64,000 nt of DNA from Herminiimonas sp. GTDB lineage: Bacteria; Pseudomonadota; Gammaproteobacteria; Burkholderiales; Burkholderiaceae_D. The DNA lies in NCBI GenBank assembly GCA_028292265.1, contig JAQGMR010000001.1, positions 1 to 64,000 of the forward strand, read 5' to 3'. Positions within the stretch are counted from its first letter, which is position 1, and each line of letters begins with the position of its first letter. This document shows positions 8,149 to 59,735 of the stretch, piece by piece. The position numbers and the translations under genes were made by a program. The notes under the pieces are model-generated. The model did not search any database and was not told the DNA's origin. It worked only from the letters and a program-made list of their open reading frames with translations.

Positions 8149-9708
8149 TTACCTTCCTCGGGAGCGCTGCTCGCCTTTGCATTCCATTGACTCGAGCACT
8201 TCACCTGACGGGTTGACGGTTTCAAGCACCACGTCAAATCCCCAAAGCCGCGACACATGCTTCAAAACTTCTTCTGTCTGGCTGTTGAGGGGTCGCCTTT
8301 GATATTGCGTATGGCGCAACGTCAGCGACCTGTCGTCACGCGTGTTGACCGACCACACCTGAATGTTGGGCTCGCGGTTATGCAGGTTGTACTGGCTTGC
8401 CAGCTGCTGGCGCACGTAGCGGTAACCGTCCTCATCGTGGATTGCGGAGATGGATAGCTTGTCTTCGTTGTCGTCATCCAGCACTGCAAAAAAGTGAAAG
8501 TCGCGGATGAGCTTGGGCGAGAGGTATTGCGCGATAAAGCTCTCGTCCTTGAAATTGCGCATCGCGAAGTCGAGGCTCTTGCGCCAATCGCTGCCCGCAA
8601 TGTCTGGAAACCAGTAGCGGTCCTCCGCCGTTGGCTCTTCGCAGATGCGGCGAATGTCGCGCATCATCGCGAACCCGAGCGCATACGGGTTGATGCCGCT
8701 GTAGTACGAACTCGAAATCGGCGGCTGATACACCACATTGGTGTGGCTTTGCAGGAACTCCATCATGAATCCCTCGCCGACGATGCCATCGTCATAGAGC
8801 TGGTTCAGGATCGTGTAATGCCAGAATGTAGCCCAGCCTTCATTCATTACCTGGGTCTGGCGCTGCGGATAAAAGTACTGCGAAATCTTGCGCGTGATAC
8901 GGACAAGTTCGCGCTGCCAGGGCTCAAGCAGGGGCGCCGATTTCTCGATGAAGTACAACAGGTTTTCCTGAGGCTCGGACGGAAAACGCGGCACACCGCC
9001 TTCATCCGGCGACATTGACGCGCCGTTCAGGCTCCCTTTCCTCGGCAGGGTCCGCCACATGTCATTGATCTGGGTTTGCAGGTAGGCTTCACGCTCGTTC
9101 TGACGGTGCGTTTCCTCCTGCAGCGACAACCGGGCGGGGCGCTTGTAGCGGTCGACGCCATAGTTTTGCAAGGCATGGCAGGAATCAAGGATCAGTTCCA
9201 CCGCTTCCACCCCATGCCGCCGCTCGCATTCCGCTACATAGCCTTTAGCAAACAGCATGTAATCGATGATGGCTTCCGCATCGGTCCAGGTGCGGAACAG
9301 ATAATTGCCCTTGAAGAAAGAGTTGTGGCCATACGCCGCATGCGCGATGACCAGCGTTTGCATCATCAGGCTGTTTTCTTCCATCAGGTAGGCGATGCAC
9401 GGATTCGAATTGATGACGATCTCGTACGCCAGCCCCATCTGCCCGCGCTTGTAGCTTTTTTCGGTCGACAGAAACTGCTTACCGAAAGACCAGTGATTGT
9501 ACGAAACCGGCATGCCGACCGAAGCATAGGCATCCATCATCTGCTCGGCTGTAATAATTTCCAGCTGGTTGGGATAGGTGTCCAGGCCAAAGCTCTTCGC
9601 CACCCGCGCGATTTCCTCATGGGCTTGCTCGATCAGCTCGAACGTCCACTCGGATTGCTCGGGAAGGCGATTCGCCGGCGCGGTTTTCTTTTCGCTGGTT
9701 GTCTTCAT
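8149..9708 (-). CDS. spoVR: SpoVR family protein
   Basis: A 519-residue SpoVR/YcgB protein (family range about 480-520). Recognisable blocks are WTFELIEQAHEEIARVAKSFGLDTYPNQLEI, YNHWSFGKQF, and the HAAYGHNSFFKGNYLF and MNEGWATFWHYTI stretches whose His and Glu residues resemble a metal-binding site. In Bacillus SpoVR affects spore cortex. In non-sporulating bacteria it accompanies PrkA and DUF444 and is induced under starvation and stationary phase, but the biochemical role is unknown. The start ATG overlaps the stop codon of the DUF444 gene (ATGA), so translation is coupled. It is the last gene of the prkA operon. Confidence 0.95.
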   Translation of the reverse strand: MKTTSEKKTAPANRLPEQSEWTFELIEQAHEEIARVAKSFGLDTYPNQLEIITAEQMMDAYASVGMPVSYNHWSFGKQFLSTEKSYKRGQMGLAYEIVINSNPCIAYLMEENSLMMQTLVIAHAAYGHNSFFKGNYLFRTWTDAEAIIDYMLFAKGYVAECERRHGVEAVELILDSCHALQNYGVDRYKRPARLSLQEETHRQNEREAYLQTQINDMWRTLPRKGSLNGASMSPDEGGVPRFPSEPQENLLYFIEKSAPLLEPWQRELVRITRKISQYFYPQRQTQVMNEGWATFWHYTILNQLYDDGIVGEGFMMEFLQSHTNVVYQPPISSSYYSGINPYALGFAMMRDIRRICEEPTAEDRYWFPDIAGSDWRKSLDFAMRNFKDESFIAQYLSPKLIRDFHFFAVLDDDNEDKLSISAIHDEDGYRYVRQQLASQYNLHNREPNIQVWSVNTRDDRSLTLRHTQYQRRPLNSQTEEVLKHVSRLWGFDVVLETVNPSGEVLESMECKGEQRSRGR

Positions 9709-10970
9709 TTGGCTTGCTGCTTCTTGAACAATTCGCGGAAAACCGGATAGATGTCGGCCGGACCCTCAATCTTCTGCATGGCGAAGCTGTCGTACTGCTC
9801 CGCCACGGCGCAATATTCCTGCCACAGGTTCTGCGTGTCGCCGTCCGTGATCTCGACGTAGGCAAAATACTGCACCATCGGCATGATGGTATTAATCAGC
9901 AATTGCCGGCAGCTCACCGAATCCTTGTCCCAGTTGTCGCCATCCGAAGCCTGTGCGACATACACGTTCCAGTCGCCCGACGGATACCGCGTTTGCAGGA
10001 TATCGTTGAGCATCAGCAGGGCGGACGAAACGACCGTGCCGCCAGACTCGCGCGAATTGAAGAATTCCTGCTCATCGACTTCGGACGCGGCCGTGTGATG
10101 ACGAATAAAGACCACGTCTATCTTTTCATAGGCCCGCGACAGGAACATATAAAGCAAAATGAAGAAGCGCTTGGCCGTATCCTTCTTCTGCTGGTCCATG
10201 GAACCGGACACGTCCATCAGGCAGAACATGACAGCCCTGGCCGATGGCTTCGGCACCTTGATGCGATTGCTGTAGCGAAGGTCGAACGGGTCGATGAAGG
10301 GAATCGCGGCTATCCGCTGTTTCAGGGTGGCGATTTCGCCCTTGAGGGAACTCACCTTCGGATCATCTTCACCGACGATTAGAAGCAGTTGCGACAATTC
10401 CTGCTCCGCCTGCGCCAGCAGCTTGGCAGGCTTGCCGCCGACTGCTATGCGCCGGCCGAGCGCACCGCGCAACGAGCGCAGTACGTGGATGTTGGTCGGC
10501 GTTCCCGACACGGTATAGCCCGCGCGCTGGTTCCGGAATTCGTCGATCGACGCCAGCTTCTTCTTGACCATGTTGGGCAACTCAAGGTCTTCGAAGAAGT
10601 AATTCATGAACTCTTCACGCGACAACTCGAAAACGAAATCGTCTTCACTCATTTCATCGCTATTGCCAGCCTTGCCCTTGCCTTTGCCACCGCCCTTTGG
10701 ACGGTCTACCTTGTCGCCCTTGACGAATTCCCGGTTGCCCGGATTCACGGTTTCCCACACGCCGCCGCGCGCATGCCCAAACACCGGTTCATTCACATCT
10801 TTCGACGGGATCGACACTTTTTCGCCGCTGTCGAAGTCCGTGATTGAACGGCCCTTGATTGCCCGCTCAACCGCCTTCTTGATCTGGCCCTTGTACCGCT
10901 GCAGAAACCGCTCGCGATTGACCGCGGACTTGTTCTTGCTTTGCAAACGCCGATCGATTAGGTAAGTCAT
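9705..10970 (-). CDS. DUF444 family protein (YeaH/YhbH)
   Basis: A 421-residue protein of the UPF0229/DUF444 family. It begins MTYLIDRRLQSKNKSAVNRERFLQRY, the classical N-terminus, and contains a VWA-like region with the MIDAS-type motif DVSGSM preceded by VMFCLM. ATG 10970 has an AGGAGAG ribosome binding site; the longer frame upstream is non-coding. DUF444 proteins are always found with PrkA and often SpoVR (E. coli yeaG-yeaH, Bacillus prkA-yhbH). They are proposed to act with the kinase in the nitrogen- or carbon-starvation response. It is followed by spoVR with a 4-base overlap and preceded by prkA at 133 bp. Confidence 0.95.
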   Translation of the reverse strand: MTYLIDRRLQSKNKSAVNRERFLQRYKGQIKKAVERAIKGRSITDFDSGEKVSIPSKDVNEPVFGHARGGVWETVNPGNREFVKGDKVDRPKGGGKGKGKAGNSDEMSEDDFVFELSREEFMNYFFEDLELPNMVKKKLASIDEFRNQRAGYTVSGTPTNIHVLRSLRGALGRRIAVGGKPAKLLAQAEQELSQLLLIVGEDDPKVSSLKGEIATLKQRIAAIPFIDPFDLRYSNRIKVPKPSARAVMFCLMDVSGSMDQQKKDTAKRFFILLYMFLSRAYEKIDVVFIRHHTAASEVDEQEFFNSRESGGTVVSSALLMLNDILQTRYPSGDWNVYVAQASDGDNWDKDSVSCRQLLINTIMPMVQYFAYVEITDGDTQNLWQEYCAVAEQYDSFAMQKIEGPADIYPVFRELFKKQQAK

Positions 10971-11103
10971 TCGCTCTCCTGCTGTGTCGGGGTCCGACCC
11001 GCCGGCCTTCACGATCGGCCTCGGGATTTCTGACTACCTGGGCCAGCACGCGCATACAACACCTCGCTGTAGCGCAGCGCCAGGCGCCACGCTACGGCAC
11101 TGC

Positions 11104-13026
11104 TTAAGACGACTTGCGAACCCGCAGATACCATTCGCATAACAGGCGAACCTGTTTGGCGGTGTATCCCTTCTCCACCATGCGTGAGACAAACTCCTTG
11201 TGCTTGTTCGCATCGTCGGCGCTGGCCTTGGCATTAAACGAAATGACCGGCAGCAGCTCCTCCGTATTCGAGAACATTTTCTTCTCGATGACCGAGCGGA
11301 ATTTCTCATACCCGGTCCAGGCCGGATTTTTCCCGTGGTTCTGGGCCCGTGTTCGCAGAACGAAGTTGACGATCTCGTTGCGGAAGTCCTTTGGATTGGA
11401 AATTCCGGCCGGCTTCTCTATCTTTTCCAGCTCGTTATTCAAGGCGTCGCGATTGAAGCTTTCGCCGGTGTCCGGATCGCGGAACTCCTGGTCTTGAATC
11501 CAGAAATCCGCGAAGGAGACATAGCGGTCGAATATGTTTTGTCCATATTCGGAATAACTTTCCAGATACGCGGTCTGGATCTCCTTGCCGATAAACTCGA
11601 CGTAGCGCTGCGCCAGGTATTCCTTGATATAGGAAAAATACTTTTGCTCGGTCTCGGATGGAAACTGCTCCCGGCTAACCTGCTGCTCCAGCACGTAGAG
11701 CAGATGCACCGGGTTTGCGGCAACTTCGGTACTGTCAAAGTTGAAAACCTTGGACAATATCTTGAAGGCGAAACGGGTCGATAACCCGCTCATGCCTTCG
11801 TCCACGCCGGCATAGTCGCTGTACTCGGATTTTGACTTCGCCTTCGGATCGGTGTCCTTCAGGTTGTCGCCGTCATAGACCTGCATCTTGCTGTAGATGC
11901 TGGAATTTTCCGGGTCCTTCAGGCGTGACAGAATCGCGAACTGGGCCATCATCTTCAGCGTGCCAGGGGCGCATGGCGCATTTGTCAGCGATGAATTTCG
12001 AACCAGCTTTTCATAGATGCGGATCTCGTCTGACACGCGCAGGCAGTAGGGCACCTTCACGATGTAGATCCGGTCAAGGAACGCCTCGTTGTTCTTGTTG
12101 TTCTTGAACGTCTTCCATTCCGATTCATTTGAGTGCGCAAGCACCACGCCGTCGAATGGAATTGCGCCGAAGCCTTCGGTGCCCTTGTAATTGCCTTCCT
12201 GCGTTGCCGTCAGCAGCGGATGCAGCACCTTGATGGGTGCCTTGAACATTTCCACGAATTCCAGCAGGCCCTGATTGGCAAGACACAGTCCGCCGGAGTA
12301 GCTGTACGCGTCCGGGTCATCCTGCGAATACTCTTCGAGCTTGCGGATATCCACTTTCCCGACAAGGGAGGAAATGTCCTGGTTGTTTTCGTCGCCCGGC
12401 TCGGTCTTGGCGACCGCCAGTTGCTTGAGCACTGACGGATAGCGCTTTACGATCCGGAATTTGTTGATGTCGCCATTGAACTCATGAAGGCGCTTGACCG
12501 CCCACGGGCTCGGAATGGTGCGCAGGTAACGGCGTGGAATGCCGTAGTCTTCTTCCAGGATGGCGCCGTCTTCATCTTCATTGAACAGCCCAAGCGGCGA
12601 CTCGTTGACGGGCGAGCCCTTGATGCAATAGAAAGGCACGGTCTCCATCAGCGACTTCAGCTTCTCAGCGATAGAGGATTTGCCACCGCCCACAGGCCCG
12701 AGCAGGTAGAGAATCTGCTTGCGCTCTTCCAGTCCCTGCGCAGCGTGGCGGAAATAGGCAACAACCTGTTCGACGACTTCTTCCGTGCCATAGAACTCGC
12801 GGAAGGCCGGATATATCTTGATGACCTTGTTGGCGAAAATGCGCGAGAGGCGAGGATCGTGGCGGGTGTCGAGCAATTCCGCCTCACCGATCGCTTTCAG
12901 CATGCGCTCGGACGCGCTTGCATAGGTATTTCGATCGCGCTTGCAGAGTTCCAGATACTCCTGGAGGGAATACTCTTCTTCCCTGGTGCGCTCGTATCGC
13001 GATGCGTAGTTGTCGAAGATTTTCAT
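11104..13026 (-). CDS. prkA: PrkA family AAA+/serine protein kinase (YeaG)
   Basis: A 640-residue PrkA protein, close to the usual 630-645. The N-terminal AAA-type domain carries Walker A GPVGGGKSS (about residues 110-118) and the motifs FNGDINKFRIVKRYPSVL and LAHSNESEW. The C-terminal third (KIEKPAGISNPKDFRNEIVNFVLR) corresponds to the PrkA C-terminal domain once compared to eukaryotic kinases. Kinase activity is reported for some members and ATP-dependent protease-like activity has been claimed for others, so the exact chemistry is open. The role is in starvation and stress adaptation. ATG 13026 is preceded by AAAGGAC. It heads the operon prkA - DUF444 - spoVR. Confidence 0.95.
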   Translation of the reverse strand: MKIFDNYASRYERTREEEYSLQEYLELCKRDRNTYASASERMLKAIGEAELLDTRHDPRLSRIFANKVIKIYPAFREFYGTEEVVEQVVAYFRHAAQGLEERKQILYLLGPVGGGKSSIAEKLKSLMETVPFYCIKGSPVNESPLGLFNEDEDGAILEEDYGIPRRYLRTIPSPWAVKRLHEFNGDINKFRIVKRYPSVLKQLAVAKTEPGDENNQDISSLVGKVDIRKLEEYSQDDPDAYSYSGGLCLANQGLLEFVEMFKAPIKVLHPLLTATQEGNYKGTEGFGAIPFDGVVLAHSNESEWKTFKNNKNNEAFLDRIYIVKVPYCLRVSDEIRIYEKLVRNSSLTNAPCAPGTLKMMAQFAILSRLKDPENSSIYSKMQVYDGDNLKDTDPKAKSKSEYSDYAGVDEGMSGLSTRFAFKILSKVFNFDSTEVAANPVHLLYVLEQQVSREQFPSETEQKYFSYIKEYLAQRYVEFIGKEIQTAYLESYSEYGQNIFDRYVSFADFWIQDQEFRDPDTGESFNRDALNNELEKIEKPAGISNPKDFRNEIVNFVLRTRAQNHGKNPAWTGYEKFRSVIEKKMFSNTEELLPVISFNAKASADDANKHKEFVSRMVEKGYTAKQVRLLCEWYLRVRKSS

Positions 13027-13476: not shown

Positions 13477-13980
13477 ATGAAGCAACCCAACACGCCAATA
13501 GACGGACTAACCAACGACTTCTGCATTCCCGCCCTCGCAGTACGCCATTCGAAAGTGCACGGCAACGGTGTCTTCGCGACTAAAAAAATCGCGGCTGAAA
13601 CCTGTATTGCGGAGTATCGCGGAGAGCGCATCACGCAAAGAGAGGCCGACAAGCGCAAGGCCGCCGACCCAGACAATCCGTTCCACACTTTTTTCTTTAG
13701 TCTTGAAGGCGGCCGCATGATTGATGGCGACAGCGAAGGCAACGCTTCGCGCTGGATCAATCACTGCTGTGAACCCAACTGCGAAGCACGCGAAGACAAA
13801 GGCCGCGTGTTTATTTACGCTCTGCGCGACATCAAGCGCGGCGAGGAATTGAACTACGACTACGGGTTGGTGGTGGAAGAGCGGCATACCGCCAAGGTCA
13901 AGGCAGCATATGAATGTCGTTGTGGTGCAGCGGGGTGCAGGCACACGATGCTCGCGCTGCGGGGTCGGCGCAAGGCCTGA
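13477..13980 (+). CDS. SET domain protein lysine methyltransferase
   Basis: A compact 167-residue SET protein that would transfer a methyl group from S-adenosylmethionine to protein lysine. Motifs in order: HGNGVFATKKIAAETCIAEYRGE (about 28-50), the pseudoknot-forming RWINHCCEPNCEA (92-104), GEELNYDYG (122-130), and a post-SET zinc motif CRCGAAGCR (147-155). The post-SET cysteines, with one from the NHCC motif, should bind zinc as in eukaryotic histone methyltransferases. The whole protein is little more than catalytic SET plus post-SET. Bacterial SET proteins are known from Chlamydia, Legionella and Bacillus and from many environmental proteobacteria; targets are mostly unknown. It is a single gene without operon partners. 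Confidence 0.9.
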   Translation: MKQPNTPIDGLTNDFCIPALAVRHSKVHGNGVFATKKIAAETCIAEYRGERITQREADKRKAADPDNPFHTFFFSLEGGRMIDGDSEGNASRWINHCCEPNCEAREDKGRVFIYALRDIKRGEELNYDYGLVVEERHTAKVKAAYECRCGAAGCRHTMLALRGRRKA

Positions 13981-14138
13981 GATCGCAGGGACGCAGCCGT
14001 GCACAGGCCAGCGAGGGCGCCGGCAGGAACGCGGCTGCATACCGGCCAGAGAGGGTGTCAGCAGGGACGCCGGCTTGCCCGTCGTCTTGGGCGGGGGACG
14101 GCATTCACGACATGCATAACAGGTATCAGCAAAGACAA

Positions 14139-14168
14139 TTGGAAGGGCGCGGACGGGCTACCTATACT
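14139..14168 (+). promoter_or_regulatory. Candidate sigma70 promoter of the small RNA
   Basis: TTGGAA (14139-14144), an 18-bp spacer and TATACT (14163-14168). The -10 box is strong, the -35 moderate. Transcription would begin near 14174, about 65 bases before the end of a terminator and with no open reading frame between. Confidence 0.5.
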
Positions 14169-14173
14169 CGTTC

Positions 14174-14240
14174 CTGTCTCCTCTATATCTCCTCCTTTGA
14201 TATAGATTTCAGCCCGCTCTTCTCGAGCGGGCTTTTTTTT
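14174..14240 (+). ncRNA. Candidate small RNA with anti-Shine-Dalgarno hairpin loop
   Basis: Predicted transcript of about 67 bases with two hairpins. The first is a perfect 7-bp stem CTATATC (14183-14189) / GATATAG (14199-14205) that presents the loop TCCTCCTTT. Its UCCUCC core is complementary to the GGAGGA of ribosome binding sites. The second hairpin is the terminator at 14211-14240. The gene stands alone between a plus-strand SET gene ending 194 bases upstream and convergent tag. C/U-rich loops exposed for pairing with ribosome binding sites are a known layout of trans-acting bacterial small RNAs; that this one is expressed and acts so is inference. Confidence 0.5.
14211..14240 (+). terminator. 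Rho-independent terminator
   Basis: Stem AGCCCGCTC / GAGCGGGCT (9 bp, 5-base loop) followed by a run of eight to nine T. It is 230 bases from the SET stop codon, so it more likely ends the small transcript starting near 14174 than the SET mRNA alone. Confidence 0.9.
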
Positions 14241-14305: not shown

Positions 14306-14872
14306 TTAGTCGGCCCTGTGCAAGAAGCAGCCCTGGACATGATCGTCGACCATGCCAGTAGCCTGCATATAGGCATACACGATGGTTGACCCTACAAACT
14401 TGAAGCCGCGGGCGGCAAGGTCTTTCGAGAGCCGGTCAGATAGCGGTGTTTTGGCGGGGACGTCCGCAGCAACCGTCCGGCGGGTCCGCAGCGGAGCGTT
14501 ATCGACGAAGGCCCACAAGTAAGAATCGAGTCCGCCGCACTCCTCGCATAGACGCAGATAGGCTTGGGCGTTGGTGATGGTTGAGGCGATTTTCAGCCGG
14601 TTGCGGATAATGCCTGGATTGGCCAGCAGCGACGCCACCTTTGCGCCGTCATAAATTGCGATCTTGCTGGCATCCCATCCGTCAAACGCGCTCCGGTAGT
14701 TGTCCCGCTTGTTCAACACGGTTTCCCAGCTCAGCCCGGCCTGCGCGCCTTCCAGGTTCAACATCTCGAACAGGCGCACCTCGTCATGGCATGGCACGCC
14801 CCATTCGGTGTCGTGGTAATGCAGGTAGCGTGGATTGGCGACGTTGGCCCATCCGCAGCGTTGCAGTTCCAC
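14306..14872 (-). CDS. tag: DNA-3-methyladenine glycosylase I
   Basis: A 188-residue Tag glycosylase (E. coli Tag: 187 residues) that removes 3-methyladenine from alkylated DNA in base excision repair. The zinc site of the family is visible: Cys in the N-terminal QRCGWA, His in YLHYHDTEWGVP, and the C-terminal pair in DDHVQGCF, spaced as in Tag. The catalytic region DTEWG and the helix-hairpin-helix-like part are present. The start is assigned to GTG 14872 because QRCGWA must be near the N-terminus; GTG 14887 is the alternative. Neither has a good ribosome binding site. The gene begins at the very end of the CheY-like gene (stop at 14877), so translation is probably coupled. Confidence 0.92.
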   Translation of the reverse strand: MELQRCGWANVANPRYLHYHDTEWGVPCHDEVRLFEMLNLEGAQAGLSWETVLNKRDNYRSAFDGWDASKIAIYDGAKVASLLANPGIIRNRLKIASTITNAQAYLRLCEECGGLDSYLWAFVDNAPLRTRRTVAADVPAKTPLSDRLSKDLAARGFKFVGSTIVYAYMQATGMVDDHVQGCFLHRAD

Positions 14873-14876
14873 GGGT

Positions 14877-15254
14877 TCAGTCAGCACGATTTGTAAGGGC
14901 TGCGATTTTTGCCAGCAATTCCGCTGCGTGGACCGGTTTGCTGATGAACTCGGTAGCACCCTGGCGCAGGCCCCAGATGCGATCCGTCTCCATGTCCTTG
15001 CCGGTCACCATTAACACGGGAATATGCGACGTCGATTCATTGCGCGTAATGGCCCGTGTGGCCTGGAACCCGTTCATGCCCGGCATCACGACGTCCATGA
15101 GAACCAGGTCCGGCATCTCAGCCTGCGACTTGGTGACCGCTTCGTCTCCGGTGGAAGCCATGATGACTTCATAACCGCCCTTCAGCAGCAAATCCAGCAT
15201 GAACCGTCGGACGGTGGCGGAGTCATCCACTACAAGAATTTTTTTAATGGTCAC
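14877..15254 (-). CDS. Single-domain CheY/PilH-type response regulator
   Basis: About 125 residues consisting of one receiver domain: KKILVVDDSATVRRFM with the acidic pair, phosphoacceptor Asp in DLVLMDVVMPGMNG, conserved Thr in VLMVTGKD, and Lys in FISKPV. No output domain is present, so it should act by protein-protein contact like CheY, PilG or PilH. GTG 15254, giving VTIKKILVVDD, is preferred since it has a GGGTGG stretch about 10 bases upstream and gives the standard length; GTG 15281 is possible. No partner kinase is adjacent; the nearest, a hybrid kinase, is 20 kb away. It is co-directional with and touching tag, which is not an obvious functional link. Confidence 0.85.
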   Translation of the reverse strand: MTIKKILVVDDSATVRRFMLDLLLKGGYEVIMASTGDEAVTKSQAEMPDLVLMDVVMPGMNGFQATRAITRNESTSHIPVLMVTGKDMETDRIWGLRQGATEFISKPVHAAELLAKIAALTNRAD

Positions 15255-50646: not shown

Positions 50647-51831
50647 ATGACGTTTTCCACGACAGCGGCACGGCTGTTCGCGACCGCTACTCTCACGTTC
50701 GCCTCGCTTTCCACCTCCATCGCCCAGGCCGCTGACCCGATCAGAATCGGCATGGTCGCGCCCTTTTCCGGACCGCTTGCCGAATACGGGCAGCGCATGA
50801 ACAACGGCATCAAGGCCTATATCGATTTGCACGGCGACACGGTGGCAGGCCGCAAGGTGGAAATCATCACGCGTGACACCACCGGCCCGCTGCCGGATGT
50901 GGCCAAGCGCCTTGCGCAGGAACTGCTGACCCGCGACAAGGTGGATTTTCTGGTCGGCTTCGGCTTCACGCCTGAAGCACTCGCGGTCGCGCCGCTCGCA
51001 ACCCAGGCGAAAAAGCCGATGCTCATCATCAACGCGGCTGCTTCCAACATCACCACCAAGTCACCCTACATTGCGCGCGTATCCTTCACGCTGGCGCAGA
51101 TTTCCGCGCCGCTGGGCGAGTGGGCCGCGAAGAATGGCATCAAGACCGCTTACACCGTGGTGTCGGATTACGCGCCGGGCATTGACGCCGAATCCGCTTT
51201 CAAGAAAGCCTTCACCGCGCACGGCGGACAGATTATTGACTCGGTTCGGGTGCCACTGCAGGGGCCAGAACTGGCGCCCTTCGTCCAGCGCATCAAGAAT
51301 GCCAAACCGGGCGCGGTTTTCGTGTTCGTGCCGGGTGGCGAGCAAATCATCGCCTTCATGAAGGCATTTGAGGAACGAGGACTCAAGGCCGATGGCATCA
51401 AGGTCCTGCTCGCCAGCGAATTGCCGAACGAGGTGCTACAGGCGATGGGCGAAGCCGCCTTGAGCGTCACTGTTTCAAGCCAGTACCTCGAGAGCCGCAA
51501 GAGCCCGGAAAACGCGGCGTTCCGCAAGGCCTATGAAAAGGTCAGTGGCGGACAGCCTCCCGCCGCCTATTCGGTGGCCGCCTATGACGGCATGGCCGCA
51601 ATTTACAACGTGGCAAAGAAGCTGAACGGCAAGCTCGATGGCGATCAGGCGATGGAGGTGCTAAAGGGCATGAAGCTGGAAAGCCCGCGTGGCCCGATCA
51701 CTATTGATCCGGAAACGCGTGACATCATCCAGACCATGCACATCGGCGCGGTGCGTCGCACCGGGAACCACAATGCAATCGTCGAAATCGACAAGTTTGT
51801 GGACTTGAAGGATCCGGGCAAGCAGCCTTAG
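50647..51831 (+). CDS. ABC transporter substrate-binding protein (branched-chain amino acid/aromatic acid type)
   Basis: A 394-residue periplasmic binding protein of the Peripla_BP_6 (LivJ/HAAT) type. It has a signal peptide (ATATLTFASLSTSIAQAA), then IRIGMVAPFSGPLAEYGQRMNNGIKAYIDLHGDTVAGRKVEIITRDTTG, the conserved start of the family. This group includes receptors for aromatic acids as well as amino acids. No permease or ATPase genes are adjacent, so the receptor must share a transporter encoded elsewhere. It has an AGGAG ribosome binding site and its own promoter, with the shared IclR operator. Its regulation with the dioxygenase operon suggests it captures that pathway's substrate. Confidence 0.88.
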   Translation: MTFSTTAARLFATATLTFASLSTSIAQAADPIRIGMVAPFSGPLAEYGQRMNNGIKAYIDLHGDTVAGRKVEIITRDTTGPLPDVAKRLAQELLTRDKVDFLVGFGFTPEALAVAPLATQAKKPMLIINAAASNITTKSPYIARVSFTLAQISAPLGEWAAKNGIKTAYTVVSDYAPGIDAESAFKKAFTAHGGQIIDSVRVPLQGPELAPFVQRIKNAKPGAVFVFVPGGEQIIAFMKAFEERGLKADGIKVLLASELPNEVLQAMGEAALSVTVSSQYLESRKSPENAAFRKAYEKVSGGQPPAAYSVAAYDGMAAIYNVAKKLNGKLDGDQAMEVLKGMKLESPRGPITIDPETRDIIQTMHIGAVRRTGNHNAIVEIDKFVDLKDPGKQP

Positions 51832-58760: not shown

Positions 58761-59735
58761 ATGAGACTTTCCCTGAAATCCTTAATTCTCGTATTCACGC
58801 TGACCGCCGGGGCAATAGCATCTGCCTTTGCGGCGGATACCACCGGTTACCCAAAGAGACCGGTGACCATCATTGTGACCATGGCGCCCGGCGGCTCGAC
58901 CGACATTGTTGGCCGGCTGCTGGCGCAACGACTGGCGGAAAGTTTCGGCCAACCGTTTATTGTCGAAAATCGGCCCGGTGCCGGAGGCAATATCGGGTCG
59001 CAGGTGGTTGCCAGAGCGCCGCATGACGGCTACACACTGATGGTTCAGCTCAGTAGCACGCAGGTTATTAACCCATCGCTGTATGCAAAGCCTGGCTTTG
59101 ATCCCATCAAGGATTTCGAACCAATTACGACCATCGTAAAGGTTCCCTATGTACTGGTTGTGCCGCCATCTTCACCGCTCCACTCGGTAAAAGATCTTCT
59201 CAATGCTGCAAAAGCGAAGCCGATGCAGTATGGCTCAGCCGGAAACGGAACACCGAACCATCTGCTTGCAGAGATGCTTGCAACAATGGAGGGCCTAAAG
59301 CTTGAGCACGTACCCTACAAAGGCGCCGCCTTTGCGACTACGGCCACCGCGTCTGGCGAAGTGCCTTTTTCTTTTGGTGCGGTACCGACCGTGATGGGCC
59401 AGGTCAAGGGGAACATGGTGCGCCCAATCGGCATCAGTTCAATCGAAAGATCGCCAGCATTACCAGACGTGCCGCCAATCGCCGACACGGTCCCCGGCTT
59501 TTCGGGCGACGCATGGGTCGGATTGTTTGCGCCAGCGGGTACACCGAAAGACATCATAGAAAAAATTTATGCTGAGGTCTTAAAGGTTTTGCGCACCACG
59601 GATTTGAAGGAGAAGCTAACCGCGCAAGGCGCAACAGTTTCGACCCTGACACCGGCGCAGTTTTCCGCGCTGATCAAGGACGACCTTGTCCAGTGGGCGA
59701 AGATCGTGAAGAGCTCGGGCGCAACGGTAAATTAA
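58761..59735 (+). CDS. Tripartite tricarboxylate transporter substrate-binding protein (Bug/TctC family)
   Basis: A 324-residue periplasmic receptor: signal peptide (LILVFTLTAGAIASAFAA), then YPKRPVTIIVTMAPGGSTDIVGRLLAQRLAESFGQPFIVENRPGAGGNIG, the Bug signature, with QYGSAGNGTPNHLLAEM as the second hallmark. Bug proteins are highly expanded in Burkholderiales and bind carboxylates of many kinds; TctA/TctB membrane parts are not adjacent. Gene order suggests delivery of the substrate of the MR/MLE enzyme that follows 28 bases later. Confidence 0.93.
   Translation: MRLSLKSLILVFTLTAGAIASAFAADTTGYPKRPVTIIVTMAPGGSTDIVGRLLAQRLAESFGQPFIVENRPGAGGNIGSQVVARAPHDGYTLMVQLSSTQVINPSLYAKPGFDPIKDFEPITTIVKVPYVLVVPPSSPLHSVKDLLNAAKAKPMQYGSAGNGTPNHLLAEMLATMEGLKLEHVPYKGAAFATTATASGEVPFSFGAVPTVMGQVKGNMVRPIGISSIERSPALPDVPPIADTVPGFSGDAWVGLFAPAGTPKDIIEKIYAEVLKVLRTTDLKEKLTAQGATVSTLTPAQFSALIKDDLVQWAKIVKSSGATVN

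Follow-up and report, generated by a model that had tools for sequence, protein, structure and literature searches.

The small RNA encoded on the forward strand at positions 14175-14240 of the window, i.e., the whole stretch of 64,000 nucleotides of Herminiimonas sp. DNA analysed here, is a real and conserved RNA of an already named kind, the Rfam family RF02278. Quite probably, it is an autonomously transcribed double-hairpin sRNA that pairs with ribosome-binding sites and downregulates uptake. The RNA itself is known, and the novelty looks to lie in a 41-bp control element at its promoter and in the regulon that this element suggests.

Table 1. Features of the sRNA locus, its neighbours and two predicted targets in the window
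Feature	Position	Strand	Basis and remarks
SET-domain protein gene, upstream	13477..13980	+	Pfam PF00856; syntenic neighbour
41-bp element CATTCACGACATGCATAACAGGTATCAGCAAAGACAATTGG	14102..14142	+	weight matrix; two dyads, reaches into the -35
-35-like hexamer TTGGAA	14139..14144	+	scan; TTGG or GTGG in 15/15 aligned ortholog sequences
-10-like hexamer TATACT, preceded by C	14163..14168	+	scan; ortholog conservation
RF02278 sRNA, 66 nt	14175..14240	+	cmscan; 5' end estimated by means of the family model and the 6-nt gap to the -10
Site 1: 5' anti-Shine-Dalgarno stretch UGUCUCCUC	14175..14183	+	sequence reading; agrees with the model's conserved 5' end
Hairpin 1 (stem 14182-14189 with 14199-14206)	14182..14206	+	fold, covariation
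Site 2: 9-nt loop UCCUCCUUU	14190..14198	+	fold
Terminator (intrinsic) formed by hairpin 2, 14211-14219 pairing with 14225-14233	14211..14240	+	scan, model, fold, covariation
Methyladenine glycosylase (tag-like) gene, downstream, convergent	14306..14959	-	Pfam PF03352; recurrent neighbour
Peripla_BP_6 receptor, predicted target	50647..51828	+	GGAGACA before start
TctC-type receptor, predicted target	58761..59732	+	GGAGACA before start

Family, structure and distribution of the small RNA

A cmscan search of both strands of the 64 kb against Rfam matches RF02278 at 14175-14240 (+) with 71 bits against a gathering cut-off of 50 (E 2.5e-12), and this is the sole Rfam family above its cut-off in the window. 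The alignment spans positions 1-64 of the 64 in the model without truncation; the UGUCUCC 5' end and the CU-rich loop of the family are both present, and the RNA has two hairpins, the second being an intrinsic terminator. Three weaker matches overlapping this one, anti-hemB (34.8 bits, cut-off 49.5), suhB/mmgR (33.4 bits, cut-off 41) and ar14 (16.4 bits, cut-off 58.8), were rejected as names for the sRNA. The original paper on RF02278 is Kimelman 2012.

The 66-mer adopts this double-hairpin fold with -25.9 kcal/mol (z -6.5), with none of 200 shuffled sequences equally stable. Stem 1 is A/U-rich and has 8 bp (UCUAUAUC/GAUAUAGA), while the terminator recovered by the scan at 14211-14233 has 9 pairs followed by a T run; the final two bases of site 1, whose complement is GAGGAGACA, lie within stem 1. 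Both stems covary. In a MAFFT alignment of 18 copies, which is free of bias towards structure, 95.5% of the cells pair and changes on both sides occur in 8 of 17 pairs, the number of both-side-change cells being 38, while shuffles give 11.9 and slid pairings no more than 12. A model built from this alignment gave 113 matches at E <= 0.001 (109 distinct rows), the search having taken 100 of 122 loci (overlapping or repeated loci and L116-L122 were omitted). In the resulting alignment, which is fitted to the structure and hence biased towards it, both sides change in 14 of 16 pairs, including 7/7 in hairpin 1, with 228 such cells against 61.3 (shuffles) and at most 71 (slid).

The initial annotation, made from the sequence alone, had described a stand-alone unit of 67 bases, free of ORFs and not recognised as a named family, with a loop able to pair with ribosome-binding sites. 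The family does have a name, but the trans-acting layout was broadly right: the unit is compact and stands alone, with a length of 66 nt, the loop UCCUCCUUU is present, on a stem of 8 rather than 7 bp, and the terminator recurs in scan, fold and family model. Three mechanical ORFs of at least 50 aa do cross the sRNA (131 and 68 aa on the forward strand, 55 aa on the reverse), none of them gene-like. Conservation of the stem pairs in relatives, on which that annotation had made its reading depend, is borne out by the covariation in both stems. It had not seen the second anti-Shine-Dalgarno stretch UGUCUCCUC or the control element at 14102-14142, most of which lies outside its span of 14139-14240.

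RF02278 is present in nearly all genomes drawn from the host's family, with matches at E <= 0.001 in 134 of 145 genomes (126 over the cut-off, up to 21 matches per genome) and in 0 of 14 control genomes. The 11 negative genomes are small (seven of g7, three of g41 and one of g29). Across the class, matches at E <= 1e-5 were obtained in 22 of 185 genomes, two of which, including the host's, exceed the cut-off, so that the distribution is centred near the host's family. The host genome itself has nine matches at E <= 1, and the window copy alone is over the cut-off. In 14 other genomes from 7 genera, the sRNA lies within 1.5 kb behind a SET-domain gene of the same orientation; PrkA lies beyond, and the next gene is of the tag-like, NYN or FAD kind, wherever the locus extends far enough. 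In the window, a yeaH-like (DUF444) gene and prkA (9705-13026, -) adjoin the SET/sRNA locus, prkA being the one that recurs in relatives; yeaH and prkA are stress genes in E. coli. Several g23 genomes carry two tandem copies about 210 nt apart, and one locus (L059, G005:C113:124500-143500) holds six RF02278-like copies in 16 kb with unrelated genes between them, mostly with an AATTGG-type promoter, similar clusters being found in genomes of the same genus.

Several members of the family have been described, and are compared here as far as the available parts of the respective reports go. Burkholderia cenocepacia has four homologs, the double-hairpin RNAs ncS03, ncS05, ncS27 and ncS62 (PMC5688073, PMC4603805), which resemble the window sRNA in sequence and double hairpin over the whole model, in the CU-rich 5' end and loop, in the terminator and in being multicopy, whereas in the window copy the loop, UCCUCCUUU, is longer and the stem, of 8 bp, is A/U-rich. 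Growth is attenuated when ncS27 is overexpressed, and an antisense to this RNA has the opposite effect (PMC5688073); a review presents this RNA as a regulator of metabolic shutdown under nutrient deprivation (PMC10987360); how the B. cenocepacia RNAs are controlled is called unknown by the study that describes them (PMC5688073). The Herbaspirillum seropedicae members Hsnc059, Hsnc063, Hsnc086 and Hsnc107 are candidates expressed in RNA-seq (PMC7011215), for which the accessible part of that report gives no individual Northern validation. Bordetella pertussis S17S is, at 67 nt, close in size to the window sRNA and likewise has anti-ribosome-binding-site stretches at its 5' end and loop, but arises from a longer RNA through RNase E cleavage; it represses in an Hfq-dependent manner, and BP2158-lacZ is a direct target (PMC11722255).

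Promoter and upstream element

The promoter TTGGAA-18-TATACT (14139-14168) of the initial annotation was recovered by the scan with a score of 9/12 and is conserved in 15 ortholog sequences. These come from 14 genomes including the host's and can be aligned from -70 on (one copy was taken per tandem pair, and L017, near-identical to L016, was omitted). Their -10 reads TATACT in 13/15 and TATAAT in 2/15, with the preceding C in 11/15; L019 and L060 have an extra TTGG within the spacer, giving spacers of 13 and 8 by script and of 19 when measured by eye from AATTGG. Between 12000 and 17000, the scans found 3 promoters where 1.5 are expected and 3 terminators where 5.8 are expected, neither count being above chance, so that conservation is the evidence. 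Ungapped identity among orthologs is 0.34 at -100 to -51, 0.47 at -50 to -1 and 0.94 at +1 to +34, i.e., promoter and element are conserved while the flanks are unalignable. A gene of the same orientation does precede the sRNA, which could then be no more than the terminator belonging to that SET-domain gene, or else a decayed, functionless copy; this reading is very improbable, however, given that the sRNA's own promoter and element are kept in orthologs, that its 5' half is 94% identical between unalignable flanks, and that stem 1 has undergone compensatory changes.

The element, with the consensus TATTnnnnAnnnnnATAnCnGnTATnnnAAAnnnnAATTGG, was modelled by a 41-position matrix seeded from 13 orthologs, the own-genome copies being kept out of training. 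These held-out copies score 37.6 bits (window) and 25.9 bits (L004), and no other position on either strand of the 64 kb scores above 3 bits. Of 106 copies, 75, spread over 61 genomes and 25 genera, have the element at the right distance; these are 75 of the 83 copies that are not of S17S type, a proportion that is partly circular because the same copies trained the matrix, as opposed to 0 of 23 S17S-type copies and 1 of 2120 shuffled upstream regions. Among the eight non-S17S copies without it, L071 is truncated where its contig stops, and those in L050 and L058 are themselves weak RF02278 matches, leaving five real exceptions (L074, L093, L103, L106 and L109). A strict pattern with at most 3 mismatches, which skips the window copy (4 mismatches), occurs at three places in the host genome, including the L004 promoter, and its reversed version at none. 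A looser pattern has matches in 19 of 24 relatives, 20 of which had been picked with RF02278 and 4 without, and its reversed control in none of them; RF02278 is present and the pattern absent in G004, and both are absent in G006, G048, G040 and G101. Four weak RF02278 matches of the host genome (L003, L006, L008 and L009) lack the element at the expected position, L009 having a 10-bit match on the opposite strand, and may be chance or decayed copies.

Unlike S17S-type RNAs, which are defined by having no promoter at the 5' end, the window sRNA has, as read from its sequence, both promoter and element directly upstream. In S17S-type copies such as L083, L029 and L066, a shared TTGC-TTGCACAA followed by CTATA stands about 50-90 nt upstream in place of the element, and is perhaps the promoter of a longer precursor. 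A shared upstream motif has been mentioned for three of the four B. cenocepacia copies (PMC5688073) and, to judge from the available part of that report, may be this 41-bp element. No description of the element's regulon or operon was found in the literature searched, which consisted mostly of papers outside subscription.

Judged from its sequence, the element has the geometry of a LysR-type site. Dyad symmetry is highest around positions 9 and 20, with centres 11 bp apart, the first dyad is TAT-N11-ATA (the window copy begins with CAT in place of TAT), and a T-N11-A dyad lies upstream of the -35, as in LysR-type promoters. A LysR-type regulator may therefore bind the element. There is a parallel in the VtlR/LsrB regulon of Agrobacterium and Brucella, in which a LysR-type regulator directly activates a few sRNAs (PMC7486931); that regulon belongs to Alphaproteobacteria. 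In Sinorhizobium, LsrB activates the anti-Shine-Dalgarno sRNA NfeR1 by way of a T-N11-A box situated between -72 and -57 (PMC10746234).

Instead of a LysR-type protein, the element could have a different reader, e.g., RpoS-dependent transcription alone or another activator, and we give this a substantial chance, yet a minority one. The -10 CTATACTT resembles the sigma-S consensus, and sigma-S control of the sRNA is a possibility; a literature search for the sigma-S string of this -10 yielded no such paper among those listed. Across 145 genomes, 129 have both RF02278 and rpoS, 5 have RF02278 only (G007, G008, G043, G046 and G073, in which rpoS does not exceed the cut-off), 3 have rpoS only and 8 have neither. 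Hence rpoS is under the cut-off in 8 of 11 RF02278-negative and 5 of 134 RF02278-positive genomes (Fisher 4.8e-8), but this association is not independent, since seven of the eight double-negatives belong to one genus of small genomes, and the three negative genomes with rpoS and five positive ones without it run against it. Furthermore, a pair of dyads with centres 11 bp apart, upstream of the -35, is foreign to sigma-factor sites, which argues against this alternative.

A small-protein gene preceded by the same element

The element is not confined to the sRNA promoters. An RF02278-like RNA stands directly after it at 17 of the 30 loci examined among the pattern matches listed, while at several others the element is followed by a gene for a short hydrophobic protein with a QPxLAAELR-like end. 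Eight of these proteins were scanned, and none has a Pfam family at the cut-off. A search with six of them found such proteins in 37 of 60 family genomes. The best element match lies 60-180 nt upstream, on the strand of the protein, at 27 of 30 small-protein loci, and at 21 of the 24 loci outside the set from which the protein alignment was built; at L185 and L187 the distance is about 1 kb, the element lying next to a tandem copy, and at L200 no element was found. At 16 of the 30 loci, an RF02278-like match (E <= 0.05) follows downstream on the same strand.

The host genome has one such combination of element, small protein and RF02278-like RNA (L005, G000:C33:35905-36600, -), in which an element of 27.2 bits precedes a hydrophobic 105-residue protein ending in QPSLAAEMRSLASRG, and the 3' region contains an RF02278-like double hairpin (UGUCUCCUCCUCCCUC...) that scores 33.8 bits by Rfam, below the cut-off. 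This arrangement resembles the CcaF1-CcsR operons, in which, according to the part of the report available, the CcsR RNAs share one transcript with a small (DUF1127) protein (PMC10253847). At a further locus (L154, G005:C70), the element lies ahead of a short protein that appears DUF1127-like by eye.

These loci may reflect a Burkholderiaceae counterpart of the LsrB/VtlR system, in which one LysR-type activator and the 41-bp element would drive both the RF02278 sRNAs and a protein of about 100 residues whose transcript releases a further RF02278-like sRNA, such that one signal would silence many uptake genes and the protein may assist the RNAs. We put this forward tentatively, rating its chances somewhat short of even.

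Predicted targets and mode of action

Target sites were sampled in 384 kb of the host genome, i.e., the window and 16 further 20-kb stretches. Among the 64 possible three-base extensions of GGAG, ACA is the most frequent before frames of at least 120 codons (14/150), and the resulting GGAGACA, which complements the first seven bases of the sRNA, precedes 1 of 182 frames shorter than 40 codons (one-sided Fisher 9.4e-5, uncorrected over the 64 extensions). Eight of the 14 GGAGACA genes encode periplasmic receptors (six TctC and two Peripla_BP_6), the remaining six encoding HMGL-like, hemerythrin, PAS, CoA transferase, FAA hydrolase and CHRD proteins. Among 30 control frames drawn at random from 136 with GGAGNNN, 11 of which have no Pfam family and are possibly spurious, one encodes such a receptor, a TctC with GGAGACG; the enrichment is thus 8/14 against 1/30 (one-sided Fisher 1.3e-4), or p 1.5e-3 against the 19 Pfam-assigned controls. 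Common ancestry of the TctC paralogs could explain part of the GGAGAC enrichment.

This bias bears on whether the RNA chooses its targets. Acting as a copy of the 16S tail, it might instead bind Shine-Dalgarno sites broadly and slow growth as a general inhibitor of translation. A search for the host's own 16S tail gave no match, so that the comparison rests on relatives: the loop UCCUCCUUU holds CCUCCUUU of the 16S rRNA 3' tail, as in the GGATCACCTCCTTTC present in 9 of 10 relatives, and the family was named for its toxicity in E. coli (PMC5688073, PMC4603805). However, the 16S tail lacks the 5' UGU by which site 1 is extended, the complement of this UGU, ACA, is the most frequent GGAG extension in the sample, receptors are over-represented among the GGAGACA genes, and S17S, in the part of its report available, alters a limited gene set and, when overexpressed, leaves exponential growth of E. 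coli BL21 unimpaired (PMC11722255), for which last reason "toxic" is not general for RF02278. Untargeted inhibition is therefore unlikely. Even less probable, to the point of being scarcely credible, is a CsrB-like sponge that titrates a protein: the RNA does have a short stable hairpin with an exposed loop, but GGA is found in the complement of the loop and not in the loop, and homologs act on mRNAs (PMC11722255).

The RNA has parallels in the alphaproteobacterial NfeR1/ar14 and CcsR ("cuckoo") RNAs, for which anti-Shine-Dalgarno loops are likewise described and ABC-transporter targets predicted in the available parts of the reports (PMC10746234, PMC10253847). They differ in that ar14 has three hairpins and that their loop motif CCUCCUCCC is absent from the window sRNA, which has GUCUCCUCU and UCUCCUCCUUU instead.

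In the mechanism that we favour, a LysR-type activator acting through 14102-14142 would probably turn transcription on in Herminiimonas sp., presumably on a growth-arrest signal, and RNA polymerase would start near 14175 and halt at hairpin 2. The RNA would then pair through its 5' end UGUCUCCUC and its loop UCCUCCUUU with ribosome-binding sites, best with those resembling GAGGAGACA, and block the translation of a subset of mRNAs, chiefly those for periplasmic receptors and catabolic enzymes, with less uptake at growth stop as the predicted outcome. The RNA thus probably silences nutrient-uptake genes. In favour of this mechanism, the host genome has genes for Hfq and RpoS.

The sRNA adds one more member to a widespread family, and with one well-defined 41-bp element across 25 genera, the control of these RNAs becomes testable. 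The operon of small protein and sRNA apparently governed by this element is an unexpected partner for RF02278, parallel to CcaF1-CcsR in alphaproteobacteria.
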